Shown here in pieces: positions 19,211 to 57,789 of a DNA stretch of 62,347 nt (the first letter of the stretch is position 1; every line of letters starts with the position of its first letter). The stretch lies in the NCBI GenBank assembly GCA_947475525.1, contig CANJMI010000025.1:1-62347 (forward strand), in the 5' to 3' direction. The position numbers were made by a program, and so were the translations under genes. The notes below the pieces were generated by a model. That model saw nothing but the letters and a program-made list of their open reading frames with translations, was not told the DNA's origin and did not search any database. The DNA comes from Polyangiaceae bacterium. Lineage in GTDB: Bacteria > Myxococcota_A > Polyangia > Polyangiales > Polyangiaceae.

Positions 19211-19482
19211 CCTTGCTCGGTTACGCTCCGGTCGCGCGGATCGCAGTGGAACGACGCGCGAACACAAGCGCGAGTGAAAACAAAATAAGGAAAGGGCCCG
19301 CCACACTCGCTTTTCGCTACCGTTGCTTCCGTCAGGATCTGGCGGGGTTCACGATGCGCCGTCGGCGGACCCACAAAGGTGGCGGTTCAGAAACCACCAA
19401 CCCACGGAGATCGAATAGCGCATGGTGTTGGAGGTGTCACGGGTTTCATTGCGGCCACTCACCCGAGTGTTACACTTTGCAC

Positions 19483-51084: not shown

Positions 51085-52095
51085 CTACCAGCGCACGACG
51101 ACTTGCGGAGGGTCGCTTGTGGCCGTCGCCTCCGCGACATCGACGATCACCGGCATCAGCGCCGTGCCAGGCTTCGTCGGATCGATGCCCTGCGCTTTCG
51201 GGTCCACGCGCGCGAGGATGCTGTCCTGACGCAACGTCGCCATGCGCTCGGGCGTTCCGGAGACGAGCACGCGAACGACGGCGGGCTCCGCTCGGCCGCG
51301 CGCGAGGCCGATCACCTGGACCTTCGCGATGAGCTCGCGGGTGACGAGCTTGCGTGCGACTTCGATGGTCGCTTCGATGTTCGGGACGTCGAAAGAGACT
51401 TTTGCGGGCGGAGCGGCGAGCAAGAGGCTGCGCGTGTAGCGGCCCTCGCCGAGCCCACCGATCTCGAAGGCTTCGGCCCGCGCGAGCTGAATGCTCTTCA
51501 CAACGGACTCTGGACCTCGCGCGTTGATGTGCTTCGGGGATACCGAGACTTCGACGCGGAGCTCGAGGCCTTGTGCCAGCTGACCCGCGATTGGGACCTG
51601 CACCTCGAGTTGGCGCTCCATCACGTTTTCCCAATGAATTGCGAGAGATTCAGGGATGATTCTCGTGACACGAAGGCTCTGGGGTAGCCCCGCGATCATG
51701 CCTGGAACCAACGTGACGACGTCGTCCAAGGCTCCCCTCAGGTCGAGTGGGATCGGGTCGAGTCTCGTCTCGAGATCGTCGAGCTGTTGCCGCGGGCCCT
51801 CGACGGTAACGCTGATGGTCTGCGGGATGTCGCTGATGAGCGCGCGCGTCCCGCCCCGTGGAGGCATGTCCGCAATGAGCGGAACCTGGACGGTGCGCTG
51901 AGCGTTGCTCGTCGTGTGCATCGACGCGTAAAAGCCGAGCGCCACCAAAAGCGCGATCACTTTCATCCCGAAGTTCTCGAACACGAGTCGCCACGCGAGC
52001 GGCTGCACGGCCGATTTTCGCCGACCGTTCGTTCGTCCTTGCGACGGTGCAGGTCCTGATGTGTTTGCCGTGTTCGATGAGGTCATCGGGCTCAT
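51085..52095 (-). CDS. cdaR: YbbR/CdaR-like regulator of diadenylate cyclase
   Basis: This 336-residue protein has a single transmembrane helix after a cytoplasmic N-terminus (about residues 42-60). Repeated extracytoplasmic YbbR domains follow (LIADMPPRGGTRALI, VTVEGPRQQLDDLETRL and later copies). CdaR binds and modulates CdaA in other bacteria. It overlaps the cdaA stop as ATGA, which supports the pairing. The usual glmM follower of this operon is not here; a convergent gene is next. Confidence 0.87.
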   Translation of the reverse strand: MSPMTSSNTANTSGPAPSQGRTNGRRKSAVQPLAWRLVFENFGMKVIALLVALGFYASMHTTSNAQRTVQVPLIADMPPRGGTRALISDIPQTISVTVEGPRQQLDDLETRLDPIPLDLRGALDDVVTLVPGMIAGLPQSLRVTRIIPESLAIHWENVMERQLEVQVPIAGQLAQGLELRVEVSVSPKHINARGPESVVKSIQLARAEAFEIGGLGEGRYTRSLLLAAPPAKVSFDVPNIEATIEVARKLVTRELIAKVQVIGLARGRAEPAVVRVLVSGTPERMATLRQDSILARVDPKAQGIDPTKPGTALMPVIVDVAEATATSDPPQVVVRW

Positions 52096-53279
52096 GGGTC
52101 GTCTTGCACCACGGGGTCGGCAGTTGCGTGTGTCTTCGTCACGGGGAGCGGGCCGTCGGGGGTCATGTCCGCGCTGTCAGCGTCGTCGATGGGAGTTCGA
52201 AATTCGGTGGGTTCCATCGGCTTTGACAGCAAATACCGGGACGCCGGTTGCTCATCGTCGTCCAAGACATCCAGGGACCGTACGGTGTGGTTCAAAAGCT
52301 CGAGGCGTTTCGGTGCCGGCACCAACGTGCGCGAAAGGGGGCTGGTCCGCACCTCGGGGGCGCGCTCCGTTTCGGGTGGCAAGCTCGCACGTGTCGAGCG
52401 CTCGATGGCCGTGAACTTGCCTGAGCGCTGTTGGCTCGTTGTGGCGTCACGTTCGGCGGGCGGACGTGTGCTGGTCGCGCGTGCTTTCGCAGCCGTGCGC
52501 CCGAAAAGGCCGAGAAGCGCCTGCTTCAGCGAGCTGCCGTCGACGTTCTGCACCATGCCGTTTGGGAAGCACAAGGTGACGGTGCCGCGTTCCTCGCTGA
52601 CGACCACGACGACCGCATCCGTCTCTTCGGTGATGCCAATCGCGGCGCGGTGCCGCGAGCCTAGCGACGCGTCGGCAACTTTGGTCGCCTCCGGCATCGG
52701 CAAGAACACGCCTGCACACGCGACCCGCAGGTCCCGTATCAGCACCGCGCCATCGTGAAGCTTGTTCACAGCCTCGGGAATGAACATCGAGACGAGCAGC
52801 TCGCGCGAAACCTCGCAATCGAGCTCGATGCCTTCGCTCTTCACGAACTCGAGCACGTTGGCGTCGCGCTCGAGGCAGATGATCGCTCCCATGCGATGGC
52901 GGGCAAGCTCGGTGGCTGCGGCGACGACTTCGTCGATCACGCGCTCCTGCGCATCCCGTCCGCGCGAGAGCCAGGCTTTCGCTCCAAGGCGAATCAGCGC
53001 ACGACGAATGTCGTTCTGAAATACGACGACGATGATGAGCAGAGCGCTCGAAGCGAGCCACGAGAGGAGGCTCGTCACGGTGGTGAGGCCGGCGTAGCGC
53101 GCGACGAAATAGAGTGCGCCGAAGACCACGATCCCGATGCCCATCTGCATCGCGCGCGTGCCCTTCAAGACGAGCAGCGAGCGATAGACGAGCACCGAAA
53201 TCACGAAGATGTCGACGATGTCTCGTGCGACATCCGCAACGGGGCGGCTCGCGAAGAGGTGGCTTAATCCCTCGAGCAC
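52092..53279 (-). CDS. cdaA: Diadenylate cyclase (c-di-AMP synthase)
   Basis: CdaA makes cyclic di-AMP from two ATP. The 395 residues begin with three transmembrane segments, then a DAC domain with the motifs DGA (176-178) and RHR (209-211). The C-terminal 130 residues are an unusual Ser/Thr/Arg-rich low-complexity tail; standard CdaA ends near 270. Its start overlaps folP by 16 bp and its stop is coupled to cdaR, so folP-cdaA-cdaR is an operon. Confidence 0.96.
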   Translation of the reverse strand: MLEGLSHLFASRPVADVARDIVDIFVISVLVYRSLLVLKGTRAMQMGIGIVVFGALYFVARYAGLTTVTSLLSWLASSALLIIVVVFQNDIRRALIRLGAKAWLSRGRDAQERVIDEVVAAATELARHRMGAIICLERDANVLEFVKSEGIELDCEVSRELLVSMFIPEAVNKLHDGAVLIRDLRVACAGVFLPMPEATKVADASLGSRHRAAIGITEETDAVVVVVSEERGTVTLCFPNGMVQNVDGSSLKQALLGLFGRTAAKARATSTRPPAERDATTSQQRSGKFTAIERSTRASLPPETERAPEVRTSPLSRTLVPAPKRLELLNHTVRSLDVLDDDEQPASRYLLSKPMEPTEFRTPIDDADSADMTPDGPLPVTKTHATADPVVQDDP

Positions 53280-54202
53280 GCCGCGCCTCCGCTGCGCTCA
53301 TGACGCTCTGATGTCGCCGGGGTCGACGCGTTCACACGGTGGAACGCGGCATCGGCGGCATACCGATACGCGAGGGCTTGCACCGTCTCTGCGACGTCGT
53401 GGACGCGCAGCATGTCGGCACCACGCGCCGCACAGTCGAGAGCGGCCGCGAGTGATCCGCCGAGGCGATTGGCGGGCGTCGGGCGCGTGGTCGCACCGGC
53501 CACCGCGGCGGCGACATACGATTTACGGCTTGCCCCGACGAGGATCGGGTGACCGAGTCGAGCCTTCAGCTCGGAGAGGCGCACGCTGAGCTCGAGCGAT
53601 TGCTCGGCGTTCTTGTTAAACCCGAGGCCAGGGTCGAACCACAGCCGCTCGCGCGCAACGCCTGCGGCGAGTGCGAGTTGCGCGGCGCTCAGCCACTCCG
53701 CCACGACCTCGGTGAGCAGGTCGCCATAACCGGTGGCCGCGTACTCGGAGAAACCGGTCATCGCCGTCATCGAGCCGCGCGAGTGCGTGAGGACGAGGTC
53801 CGCGTCGAACCTGGCCGCGAGGCGTCCAAGCTCCGCGGCGGGGTCGAGCGAGACGCTGTTGATCATGCGGGCGCCGGCTCGAAGTGCGTGCTCGGCTACC
53901 TGCGGCGATGTGGTGTCGATCGACACCAGCGCCCCGCTTTTTACCGCATAGGCTACGAGATCGCCGATGCGGCTTATCTGCGAGGGAGCATCGACGGGCT
54001 CTGCGCCAGGTCGGGTCGATTCGGCCCCGATGTCGATCACATCCGCGCCCGTCCGCACGAGCTCGTCGACGCGCGCGTGTGCGGCGTCCTCCCCGAGGTG
54101 CGTGCCGCCATCGAAGAACGAATCGGGTGTGCGGTTGACGATGCCCATCACTCGAACGCGGCTCTCTGTCGGCGAAAGCGCGAGAGCCTCAAGATGGGTC
54201 AC
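53264..54202 (-). CDS. folP: Dihydropteroate synthase family protein (FolP)
   Basis: The 312-residue (beta/alpha)8-barrel protein fits dihydropteroate synthase, which joins pterin and PABA in folate synthesis. Loop 1 is IVNRTPDSFFDGG with Arg where most enzymes have Val, a form known from the FolP2 type. Other sites kept are SIDT, IN, WFDPGLGFNK, GASRKS and RVHDV. The start is GTG 54202. It leads an operon with cdaA and cdaR, an arrangement common in deltaproteobacteria. Confidence 0.92.
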   Translation of the reverse strand: MTHLEALALSPTESRVRVMGIVNRTPDSFFDGGTHLGEDAAHARVDELVRTGADVIDIGAESTRPGAEPVDAPSQISRIGDLVAYAVKSGALVSIDTTSPQVAEHALRAGARMINSVSLDPAAELGRLAARFDADLVLTHSRGSMTAMTGFSEYAATGYGDLLTEVVAEWLSAAQLALAAGVARERLWFDPGLGFNKNAEQSLELSVRLSELKARLGHPILVGASRKSYVAAAVAGATTRPTPANRLGGSLAAALDCAARGADMLRVHDVAETVQALAYRYAADAAFHRVNASTPATSERHERSGGAACSRD

Positions 54203-54331
54203 TCGATCTTGGCTAGCAAGTTCCGGGCCTTATCGCAATGGTCATTCCAACCAATCGGTTGCGGGCGGCCATTCCCTCCGAATGGGCACGTCCTATAGGC
54301 GTGTTTCCGTGTAACATTCCGAGGCCCTATC
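54203..54331. promoter_or_regulatory. Shared divergent control region between folP-cdaA-cdaR and pgpH
   Basis: The 129-bp gap separates opposite-strand c-di-AMP synthesis and breakdown genes. It contains the hexamer CATTCC three times (54243, 54270, 54315) and a small dyad CCATTC/GAATGG (54269-54285). No clear -35/-10 pair can be read with certainty. Confidence 0.45.
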
Positions 54332-56077
54332 ATGTTGGTCACGCGGGTTCGTGTCGGCGTACTTTCCGGACTCGCGCTCTGCGCCGTGGTCGCCGCGCTC
54401 ATGACGGTCATCGGGAGCTTCGAGGTGCTCCTGCCCTTCACGCGGCCGACGTTCGGCAAGCCGAGCCCGCTCGTCATGCGCGTGCCGCTAGGCGCTTCCG
54501 CAACGTCGGTGCGGCCGCCGTTGTCCGGTGGCAGTCAGCAAGCCCCGCGCGCGCGGCTGTTCGATGTGCAATTCGAGCACCGCCGCATGGTCGTCGATCG
54601 TGGCACCGTGCTCCTCCCGAACATCGAGGAGCACCGCATCGCCGTCGATTTTGATGCGGCGCGGCGTCCCCCGACGGCGGCCCGGCTCGGGAGCACGTTC
54701 CTCCTGTATTTTCTCGGCTGCATTATTTTGTCGAGTTACGCCGTAAGGTTTGGCCACGCGCGTCTGCGGTTGGTGCGTTCCCAGGTCGGGCTCTATGCCG
54801 TCATCCTTTCCATGTTCATGCTGGGCAAGCTGCTGTTGCTCTTCACGACCTTGCCGGCATTTTGGATCCCGACCGCCGCTGTCGCGTTGTGGGCCGCCCT
54901 CAGTTTCGATCGCAAGGCGGGCCTCCTGCTCGACATGGGCGCGGCATTTCTCACCGCCTCGCTCCTCAGCTTCGATGTGATGCTGCTGAGCGTGCTCGTC
55001 AGCCGGGGCATCGTCGTGTCGCTGCTGTTCGTCAATCGCAAGCAGCCGCGCCACATGATCTTTGCGGGCCTTGGCGCTGGGGTCGTCTCGGCCGTCGGTT
55101 ACGTCGCGCTCTCGACCGTGTTTCAACAGCAAGCGGGAATTCGCGAAGATTTGGCGCTTGGCTTCGACTCGCAGCTTCTCGCTTGTGTCGGTGGCGGCCT
55201 CCTCGCGGGGCTGCTCGCGAACATCGGCCGCGAGCCCGCGGAACAGATGATGGGGCATGTGTCGCGCAGCCGGTTGCTCGACCTCACGGACATCGAGTCT
55301 CCGCTCCTTCGCAAGATGGCTGCCGAGGCGCCCGGCAGTTGGGAGCACTCGCGCACGATGGCGAACCTCGCTGAGGCCGCCGCTGCCTCGATTGGGGCGG
55401 ATTCGCTCTTAACGCGAGTCGGGGCCTACTACCACGACCTCGGCAAGACCATTCAGCCGACGTATTTCGTCGAGAACCTCGCGCATGGTCAGACGTCGCC
55501 GCACGAGGAACTCGAGCCTGAAGTAAGCGCCGACGCGATCATGGCGCACGTCGTGATGGGCACCAAAATCCTCCGTGACGGCGGGGTCCCCGAGCCGGTT
55601 GTCGAGTTCGCTTATACCCACCACGGCACGCAGGTGGTCGAGTTCTTCTGGAACAAGTACCAGGAGCGAAACCCCGATCTTGGAGCGGAGTTGCGGCTCG
55701 GCGAGAACCATTTTCGCTACCCGGGCATGAAGCCAATGACGAAAGAGACCGCCATCTTGATGTTGGTGGACTCGATCGAAGCCGCGTCACGCACGATTGA
55801 TTCGCCGACCCACGAGAGGTTCGTCGAGATGATTCGCCGCGTCTTGTTCACGAAGCTCGCTTCGGGTCAGCTCGATGACTCGGGCCTGACAGTCATCGAT
55901 CTCCGTGTCATGGTCAACCGCATGGCTTCCGCGCTCGTCAACATGTCCCACGGTCGCGTGAAGTACCCGTGGCAACGTGACAAGGCGGCCGAGCGGCCCG
56001 TGCCGAAAGCTCCCGGGCCGGAACAGCCCATCCCTCAAACGCAGCCTAACGAACAGAAAGCGGTGGACCCGAAGTGA
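54332..56077 (+). CDS. pgpH: 7TM-HD cyclic-di-AMP phosphodiesterase (PgpH-like)
   Basis: The 581 residues have a first transmembrane helix (about 10-30), an external domain of only about 100 residues, six further membrane helices (about 115-305) and a cytosolic HD domain. The HD part has APGSWEHSRTMANLAEAAA, YYHDLGK (His 368, Asp 369) and THHGTQVVEFF, as in PgpH proteins that cut c-di-AMP. Listeria PgpH is over 700 residues with a larger external sensor. The next gene, an acyl-CoA dehydrogenase, overlaps its stop by 4 nt. Confidence 0.93.
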   Translation: MLVTRVRVGVLSGLALCAVVAALMTVIGSFEVLLPFTRPTFGKPSPLVMRVPLGASATSVRPPLSGGSQQAPRARLFDVQFEHRRMVVDRGTVLLPNIEEHRIAVDFDAARRPPTAARLGSTFLLYFLGCIILSSYAVRFGHARLRLVRSQVGLYAVILSMFMLGKLLLLFTTLPAFWIPTAAVALWAALSFDRKAGLLLDMGAAFLTASLLSFDVMLLSVLVSRGIVVSLLFVNRKQPRHMIFAGLGAGVVSAVGYVALSTVFQQQAGIREDLALGFDSQLLACVGGGLLAGLLANIGREPAEQMMGHVSRSRLLDLTDIESPLLRKMAAEAPGSWEHSRTMANLAEAAAASIGADSLLTRVGAYYHDLGKTIQPTYFVENLAHGQTSPHEELEPEVSADAIMAHVVMGTKILRDGGVPEPVVEFAYTHHGTQVVEFFWNKYQERNPDLGAELRLGENHFRYPGMKPMTKETAILMLVDSIEAASRTIDSPTHERFVEMIRRVLFTKLASGQLDDSGLTVIDLRVMVNRMASALVNMSHGRVKYPWQRDKAAERPVPKAPGPEQPIPQTQPNEQKAVDPK

Positions 56078-57789
56078 GCGATTCGAGCTTCATGAAGAAC
56101 CTTTTTCACGGAGGCATCAGCGAAGAGTTGTTGTTTCCTTACCCGCAGCTCAAGGGGGAGGAGCTCGAGAACGTGCAGTTGATGACGGAGACCGTGCGTC
56201 GGTTTCTCGATGAAAAAGTCGATGCCAGTGCGATCGATCGGAACCACGAGATCCCGAAAGAGGTGCTCGATGAGGCGAAGGCTCTCGGGCTTTTCGGGCT
56301 TCAGATCCCGACGGAGTATGGCGGTCTCGGTCTCGGCGCGTCGGCCTACAGCCGCGTGATGCAGGAGGTGGCGGCGCACGATTCGTCGCTCACCGTGACG
56401 CTCGGTGCGCACCAGTCGATCGGCTTGAAAGCCATTCTTCTCTACGGTACGGCGGCGCAAAAGCGGCAGTACTTGCCTTCGCTCGCGACGGGTGAGCGCG
56501 TGGCGGCTTTCGCGTTGACCGAGCCCGATGCTGGCTCCGACGCCGCGTCGATCAAGACACGTGCCGAGCTCTCCGCGGACGGCACTCACTACGTGCTGAA
56601 CGGCTCGAAGATTTGGATTACCAACGGAGGCTTCGCGGACATCTTCACGGTTTTTGCGCGGACCACCGAAGAGAGCGACGGCAAACCGAAGCTGACGGCG
56701 TTCATCGTCGAGCGCGCCGAGGGGCTTCGCACAGGGGCCCCCGAAGACAAGCTCGGCATTCGCGGGTCATCGACGACCACGGTGTATTTCGACGACGTGA
56801 AGGTGCCTGCCGCCAATGTGATCGGCGAGCCAGGGCGCGGATTCAAGGTCGCCATGGGTGTGCTCAACAACGGTCGCCTCGGACTCGCGGCTGGCTGCGT
56901 CGGGATGTGTCGCACGCTCCTCAAGCTTGCGTTGGAGCGCGTGCAAGAGCGTCGCGCCTTCAACAAATCGATAGGCGAGTTCGGCCTCATCAAAGACAAA
57001 ATCGCCGGCATGCTCGCGCGGACCTATGCGCTCGAGTCGGCGACCTACATGACGACCGGTCTCGTCGACGCGGACGTCGGTGACTACTCGCTCGAGAGCG
57101 CGATCTGCAAGGTGTTCGGCTCGGAGTGCTTGTGGTGGGTTGTCAACGAGACGCTGCAGATCGCCGCGGGCATTGGCTACATGACGGAGTATCCGTACGA
57201 GCGAATGCTACGCGACGCGCGCATCAATTTGATCTTCGAGGGCACCAACGAAATCCTTCGCTGTTTCATCGCGCTCTCGGGCATGGCCGGTCCCGGCAAG
57301 CAGCTCTCGGACGTCTCGAAGGCGATGCGCGAGCCCATCAAGGGCTTTGGTTTGCTCGCCGATTTCGCCGCGAAAAAGGTGCGGACCGCCCTCGGACCGG
57401 AGCGCTTCACGCGGGTGCATCCGCTCCTCGCGCGTGAAGCCGTCATGCTCGAAGACCACGTCGCGCACCTCGCGCGGCATGTCGAGAATACGCTCCGCAA
57501 GCACGGTCGAAAAATCGCCGAAATGCAGTTCGTGCAGCGCCGCGTCGCCGACGTAGCCATCGACTTGTACGTGCTCGCCGCGTGTCTCTCGCGCGCGACC
57601 CAGGCGATTGAGAAACAGGGCACCGAGGGCGCTTGGCGTCACGTGGAGTACACCCGCATCTTTGCGACCGAGTGCCGCGAGCGGCTGGCGTGCAACGTCG
57701 CCGGGTTCGAGCAGAACGACGACGAGCTGCGCAAAGATACGGCGGTGCGAAGCTACGCTGACATGGGCTACGCGCTCGACGTCATTTGA
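56074..57789 (+). CDS. Acyl-CoA dehydrogenase with C-terminal extension (VLCAD/ACAD9-like)
   Basis: The 571-residue FAD enzyme dehydrogenates acyl-CoA in fatty-acid beta-oxidation. It has TEPDAGSDAASI, WITNGGFADIFTVFA, LGIRGSSTTTVYFDDVKVP, GRLGLAAGCVGMC and the catalytic Glu in IFEGTNEILR. A helical domain of about 170 further residues resembles the extra region of membrane-associated VLCAD/ACAD9. The GTG start overlaps the pgpH stop as GTGA, a surprising pairing. No electron-transfer flavoprotein gene is near. Confidence 0.95.
   Translation: MSDSSFMKNLFHGGISEELLFPYPQLKGEELENVQLMTETVRRFLDEKVDASAIDRNHEIPKEVLDEAKALGLFGLQIPTEYGGLGLGASAYSRVMQEVAAHDSSLTVTLGAHQSIGLKAILLYGTAAQKRQYLPSLATGERVAAFALTEPDAGSDAASIKTRAELSADGTHYVLNGSKIWITNGGFADIFTVFARTTEESDGKPKLTAFIVERAEGLRTGAPEDKLGIRGSSTTTVYFDDVKVPAANVIGEPGRGFKVAMGVLNNGRLGLAAGCVGMCRTLLKLALERVQERRAFNKSIGEFGLIKDKIAGMLARTYALESATYMTTGLVDADVGDYSLESAICKVFGSECLWWVVNETLQIAAGIGYMTEYPYERMLRDARINLIFEGTNEILRCFIALSGMAGPGKQLSDVSKAMREPIKGFGLLADFAAKKVRTALGPERFTRVHPLLAREAVMLEDHVAHLARHVENTLRKHGRKIAEMQFVQRRVADVAIDLYVLAACLSRATQAIEKQGTEGAWRHVEYTRIFATECRERLACNVAGFEQNDDELRKDTAVRSYADMGYALDVI

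Follow-up and report, generated by a model that had tools for sequence, protein, structure and literature searches.

Does a bacterium that encodes a predicted synthase of cyclic di-AMP (c-di-AMP) head-to-head with a putative hydrolase of the same messenger possess a turnover module, or has the order of these genes simply been inherited? This question is raised by a 62,347-nucleotide stretch of DNA from a Polyangiaceae bacterium (contig CANJMI010000025.1 of assembly GCA_947475525.1, hereafter the window), in which folP, cdaA and cdaR lie on the minus strand and a pgpH-like gene, encoding a predicted 7TM-HD phosphodiesterase, diverges from them on the plus strand. The initial annotation had described this layout, with 129 bp between the two sides, and had proposed that both arms of c-di-AMP metabolism share one control region. 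The open reading frames (ORFs) and the family scores agree with the layout, all scores of the window cdaR, cdaA, folP and pgpH genes being above curated cut-offs, and we consider it fairly probable that the locus is a c-di-AMP turnover module with a conserved divergent order, separate promoters, and an exchange between PgpH and a DHH-type phosphoesterase among relatives. What sets this locus apart is not its enzyme families, which are ordinary, but an unusual, family-wide arrangement and a stripped-down PgpH with a likely exchange partner.

The c-di-AMP literature considered here is mainly about Gram-positive bacteria, cyanobacteria, archaea, and the species Porphyromonas gingivalis, and none of the titles, in a coverage that leaves out most subscription journals, announces c-di-AMP enzymes in Polyangiaceae. 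If our reading is correct, large-genome social bacteria such as Sorangium and Polyangium would hold the synthesis and the breakdown of this messenger in one conserved locus.

The predicted synthase and a short PgpH-like protein

CdaA passes the equivalog model TIGR00159 (191.9 bits for a cut-off of 188.8) and harbors the domains PF19293 (CdaA_N, 32.4 vs. 23.8) and PF02457 (DAC, 117.5 vs. 27), the latter being matched by cdaA alone in the source genome (5.15 Mb, 98.9% complete); the E. coli genome, taken as a control, gave no CdaA match. It contains the stretches LHDGA and GSRHR, which we take to carry the CdaA catalytic motifs named DGA and RHR, and with these motifs kept, cdaA is predicted to encode a c-di-AMP synthase. 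Among the CdaA proteins of the family, the first motif reads HDGA in 67 of 74 cases and HDGS in the seven others (loci L101, L102, L105, L107, L110, L140, and L148). The window protein is extended at its C-terminus, past the DAC domain, by some 140 residues with abundant proline, serine, and threonine (positions 52092-52500); the length of this extension differs among relatives. CdaR, whose gene adjoins cdaA, matches YbbR over a single stretch (PF07949, 48.2 bits vs. 22.3), and FolP reaches 235.6 bits on TIGR01496 (cut-off 162.6). The succession of cdaA and cdaR is the same as in the Firmicute cdaA-cdaR-glmM operon, as described in PMC10243994; unlike in that operon, folP lies upstream, a choice-of-anchor L protein rather than glmM is found beyond cdaR, and the PgpH-like gene is divergent. 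CdaA, with its partner CdaR, would make c-di-AMP at the inner membrane, and the short PgpH-like membrane protein, transcribed in the opposite direction, would cut it.

This second prediction lies on several observations. The protein exceeds the cut-offs of PF01966 (HD, 53.6 bits vs. 22) and PF07698 (7TM-7TMR_HD, 31.1 vs. 29.4), and PF07698 is matched at E 0.001 in all 23 PgpH members scanned from the family or its sister family. Its HD domain aligns over 224 residues with the HD structure of Listeria PgpH (4s1b, E 1.4e-54), and when an AlphaFold2 model (mean predicted local distance difference test score of 84.3, membrane helices in the model) was compared with the PDB by Foldseek, the best four matches were that same Listeria domain (4s1b/4s1c), one entry being with c-di-AMP. 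Seven residues that are presumably the HD metal ligands (H339, H368, D369, H406, H430, H431, and D480) are invariant across 39 aligned PgpH proteins; L194 was excluded from alignment A3 on account of a stop inside the matched stretch. With its catalytic motifs thus kept, the gene is a predicted c-di-AMP hydrolase.

The label of PgpH-type 7TM-HD protein given in the initial annotation holds for the HD and 7TM parts and not for the 7TMR-HDED outer domain (PF07697), which was matched neither in the protein, nor in any of the 23 scanned members, nor in the whole genome, in a search whose controls ring in 3 of 14. Because this large outer domain was not found, the protein is filed as a short variant and not as a canonical PgpH. 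Compared with Listeria monocytogenes PgpH (Lmo1466), the HD domain is alignable and has the same fold, and a 7TM region is predicted here too; the outer part differs, since PF07697 is absent and, in the model, the segment that connects the first membrane helix to the 7TM block consists of about 85 residues and includes two strands. As the outer domain is missing, PgpH is probably ungated by a domain of the 7TMR-HDED type, and if so, Polyangiaceae would offer a natural test of that domain's role.

Conservation and control of the head-to-head order

A search of related genomes for the divergent pair had been set beforehand as a test, and its outcome contradicts a consistent separation of the two genes in close relatives. 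Of 289 genomes sampled across the class, 263 have a DAC match and 144 a match to the window PgpH; the head-to-head order is kept in 43 of the 45 genomes of the same family that have PgpH, which also rules out that the pair is unique to the window genome. In 41 of these 43, pgpH is divergent and no more than 2.5 kb away from the DAC domain, in another one the distance is 3.05 kb, and in the last (L121) folP and pgpH diverge at a contig end; the two remaining genomes (G232 and G245) have pgpH and cdaA on different contigs. Outside the family, a close divergent pgpH/cdaA pair was found in none of the 68 genomes in which both genes were located (86 of the 99 PgpH-matching genomes were taken, without the 13 weakest or unlisted ones, and for 18 of the 86 the DAC listing, which gives best rows only, shows no position). 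Eight of these 68 have the two genes convergent and 6 to 12 kb apart, and one has them 23 kb apart; the convergent spacing of L168, L170, and L171, from other families of the class, constitutes an independent loose linkage.

Among the loci of named Polyangiaceae relatives, which overlap with the sampled genomes and are therefore not independent of them, 39 of 80 are head-to-head (38 with cdaA and one with folP only). They include three Sorangium cellulosum strains, Polyangium fumosum, three Polyangium sp. strains, and Minicystis rosea, and the locus is hence present in cultured strains. The two closest named records that were found bear the labels Polyangiaceae bacterium and Deltaproteobacteria bacterium, followed by Polyangium, Sorangium, Byssovorax, and Minicystis, which bears out the myxobacterial host that had been supposed from the letters of the window. 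In the window, 1,052 bp separate the end of cdaA from pgpH, with folP in between, and the gap between folP and pgpH spans 123-478 bp in 35 of the 36 measured head-to-head loci (window counted), the other one measuring 1848 bp. In G176 (L095, 3591-5255), a 554-codon ORF is inserted between folP and pgpH, with a gap of 1.8 kb.

The acyl-CoA dehydrogenase gene acad, which follows pgpH and overlaps it in 11 loci, sheds light on how this order may have arisen. These two genes adjoin away from folP in the sister family f6 (four of four fetched loci) and in a single f5 genome, and for this reason the pgpH-acad pair looks older. In an ancestor of the family, this older pair would have been placed head-to-head with folP-cdaA-cdaR, after which the order would have held and other neighbors changed. 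The same observation also serves a rival explanation, namely ordinary inherited synteny, whereby a single ancestral rearrangement left both sides with their own promoters and without functional coupling. An order common to close relatives by descent, PgpH located away from cdaA in G232 and G245, and a folP-side element kept with or without pgpH (see below) are all consistent with it, and we regard it as a serious contender, if somewhat short of an even chance. However, neighbors do decay in this family: of the 39 family loci that were fetched and contain pgpH, 37 keep the head-to-head order, 31 of the 37 readable for acad have it on the same strand, and 3 of the 33 readable on the cdaR side keep the neighbor there. 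The pair has outlived the absence of folP once (in L105, pgpH is nonetheless divergent to cdaA) and that of acad in four head-to-head loci with enough sequence (L100, L103, L106, and L108). Since the other neighbors decay faster and the pair persists without folP, a constraint on the cdaA/pgpH pair beyond inherited order is favored, not proven.

As to what such a constraint might involve, the idea of joint control retains the conserved head-to-head order in its favor, and one shared control region is not supported by the distribution of upstream elements. On the folP side, the promoter-like element TTGC-N15-TTGCTA is conserved at 37 sites upstream of folP within the family (30 dereplicated, L082-L152), and TTGCTA is found no more than 100 bp from where folP starts in 24 of the 36 loci that have pgpH and in 16 of the 36 that lack it, for 0.4 expected in each set; two of these 16 belong to genomes with PgpH elsewhere. 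Under the consensus patterns that we assume for these factors, the element fits both a sigma-70-like (TTGC, 17 bp, TA) and a sigma-54-like (GG-N10-GC) reading; a GG is found 10 bases ahead of GC in many copies. Since the element is so close to folP in the window, the folP transcript is likely nearly leaderless there. On the pgpH side, TTGCTA occurs in 1 of 39 cases and a different, weak element, GCTA-N3-T, in 13 of 39 (1.9 expected), and neither motif was found upstream of cdaA and cdaR (0 of 73 each). The folP side thereby keeps its element without pgpH, and PgpH itself is dispensable. A scan of the 129-bp gap for sigma-70 and terminator consensus sequences found none. A riboswitch in the gap was rejected, as Rfam at its gathering threshold reports only a signal recognition particle (SRP) RNA in the whole window, and so was the notion that the folP-side element is a promoter used commonly across the genome, where it occurs in its exact form 5 times, vs. 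3 for the backward control. Judged by their upstream elements, the two sides seem to be promoted separately, which weakens, rather than refutes, joint control; each would probably have its own promoter in the gap, and any coupling would come from closeness rather than from one shared operator.

Probable loss of pgpH and a DHH phosphoesterase in relatives

PgpH was not found in 44 of the 89 family genomes, by a first-look search that scored at most four candidates per genome and may include some misses. Of the 36 family loci without pgpH that were fetched, 29 are readable, and in 24 of these acad is divergent to folP, with a gap of at most 300 bp in 17. The presence of acad beside folP is likely a scar of pgpH loss, the alternative being that pgpH was inserted later between acad and folP. 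A replacement of PgpH by another hydrolase in the same slot was discarded, as no gene fits these 17 of the 24 readable gaps. In five relatives without PgpH (L066, L069, L072, L075, and L076), the acad-folP gap is longer and contains the gene of a MarR-like regulator, named by eye, and the acad-folP gaps of L070 and L071 hold other ORFs.

A search for other hydrolases in PgpH-less genomes identified a DHH protein of about 375 residues, which is present in 41 of the 44 family genomes without PgpH vs. 19 of the 45 with it. The 89 genomes thus divide into 19 with both proteins, 26 with PgpH only, 41 with DHH only, and three with neither (Fisher 2e-7, a value that ignores kinship), two of these three having contigs that end at the locus; in the subset of 61 genomes with a completeness of at least 90% and a contamination of no more than 5%, the corresponding numbers are 15, 21, 24, and one. 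At most six candidates were scored per genome, such that some DHH absences may be misses: in G088, the Pfam DHH search gave a RecJ-like protein only, and the alignment search recovered the DHH protein. On a CdaA+FolP tree of 78 genomes (74 of the 89 family members and 4 outgroup genomes; built by a fast method, with poor support for 26 of its 75 inner branches), 11 changes are counted for PgpH and 12 for DHH. Pagel's test, in an implementation written for this analysis, yields p 0.007 with 78 tips and 0.001 with the 76 tips left after removal of two contig-edge genomes, or 0.002 and 0.0002, respectively, under a stricter DHH call, and the fitted rate of PgpH loss is about 2 with DHH vs. 0.06 to 0.17 without it. 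The frequent loss of PgpH where DHH is present suggests that the two proteins overlap in function or share a substrate, and the DHH protein of PgpH-less relatives may do PgpH's job. In the window genome, a DHH protein of this type was found neither by the Pfam DHH nor by the alignment search, which makes PgpH the sole candidate of the PgpH/DHH classes there.

On this basis, we tentatively put forward, as a possibility that we would not yet bet on, that Polyangiaceae have two exchangeable c-di-AMP hydrolases, the head-to-head PgpH devoid of its outer domain and a DHH family that repeatedly permits PgpH loss. If this were the case, the family would represent a natural replacement series in which the synthase needs some hydrolase rather than a particular one, and the DHH proteins would be candidates for a new family of hydrolases, from whose presence the loss of PgpH could be predicted.

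Several points weigh against the turnover module and its exchange. The head-to-head order may have arisen once and been kept by inertia, and no shared operator was seen in the gap, in a motif search that was not exhaustive. G263 (91% complete) has neither PgpH nor DHH by these searches, pgpH being truly missing beside folP. Six PF01663 matches, five of them over the cut-off, occur in the window genome, and since we take PF01663 to be a broad class including AtaC, another hydrolase is possible. A sign test on independent pairs gave no significance (median p 1), the informative pairs being too few for 0.05 to be reached. In sequence, the DHH protein is roughly as far from Rv2837c/CnpB (E 1.3e-5) as from NrnA chains (1e-5 and 1.3e-5), and PMC9757072 reports no cleavage of c-di-AMP by the NrnA-type enzymes tested there. 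In P. gingivalis, the level of c-di-AMP fell when a PgpH-type gene was deleted, even though its motifs are conserved (PMC9259658).

The points on the DHH protein would be met if it were a NrnA-type nanoRNase without a link to c-di-AMP, its association with PgpH loss stemming from shared ancestry, and this explanation stands on much the same footing as inherited synteny, plausible without being the better bet. The independent events are few, the neighbors in five loci show by eye no c-di-AMP context, and the distant matches include NrnA and pyrophosphatases besides Rv2837c, a pyrophosphatase being the best structure match (2.6e-7) among matches that are weak overall. Like NrnA and CnpB (Rv2837c), which are DHH-DHHA1 phosphoesterases, the relatives' protein has a DHH domain above the cut-off in both sequences scanned; its DHHA1 scores are only about the cut-off (20.1 and 26.3 vs. 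25.9), and no NCBIfam equivalog was reached. Against shared ancestry stand the tree-corrected association (p 0.007 to 0.0002) and the failure to detect the protein in 26 of 45 genomes with PgpH when it is found in 41 of 44 without.

It is by contrast improbable that the PgpH-like protein is not a hydrolase in vivo and instead tunes or raises CdaA output, or serves membrane-lipid metabolism with acad: the P. gingivalis deletion, the pairing and overlaps with acad, and the missing outer sensing domain would accord with this, but the presumed metal ligands do not vary, the HD domain can be aligned with a c-di-AMP-bound structure, and the pattern of exchange with the DHH phosphoesterase points to hydrolysis. 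With regard to the turnover module, the P. gingivalis synthase and PgpH/HD-type genes, dacpg (PGN_0523) and pdepg (PGN_0521), are likewise near each other; the accessible part of PMC9259658 speaks of "nearby genes," does not describe a head-to-head order with folP, and reports that no DHH-DHHA1 c-di-AMP phosphodiesterase was found.

Coordinates and further observations in the window genome

The features of the locus are listed in the table. The interval 51085-57789, initially assigned as a whole to the c-di-AMP genes, does run from cdaR to pgpH; its far end is the stop of acad, which had gone unmentioned, and this rules out that pgpH itself extends to 57789.

Table. Features of the folP-cdaA-cdaR/pgpH locus, in window coordinates
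Feature	Position	Strand	Evidence and remarks
cdaR (YbbR-domain protein, 336 aa)	51085..52095	-	PF07949; overlaps cdaA by 4 bp
cdaA, membrane diadenylate cyclase, 395 aa, long C-terminal extension	52092..53279	-	TIGR00159, DAC, CdaA_N
folP, dihydropteroate synthase, GTG start	53264..54202	-	TIGR01496; overlaps cdaA by 16 bp
Divergent intergenic region folP/pgpH, 129 bp	54203..54331	.	ORF positions
Promoter-like element, folP side, TTGC-N15-TTGCTA, near the folP start codon	54214..54238	-	Conserved upstream sites
pgpH-like 7TM-HD phosphodiesterase (predicted), no 7TMR-HDED outer domain, 581 aa	54332..56077	+	HD, 7TM
acad, acyl-CoA dehydrogenase, overlaps pgpH by 4 bp	56074..57789	+	PF00441, PF02771, PF02770, PF21343 over cut-off

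The SRP RNA, of the bacterial small type, lies at 19288-19375 on the minus strand and scores barely above the Rfam gathering score. Elsewhere in the genome, the only TrkA_C (RCK_C) match is a 382-residue protein (L257, 577-1725, on contig C21) with a filter-like stretch, TVGYAE; judged by eye, it is probably a potassium channel and represents a candidate target of c-di-AMP.

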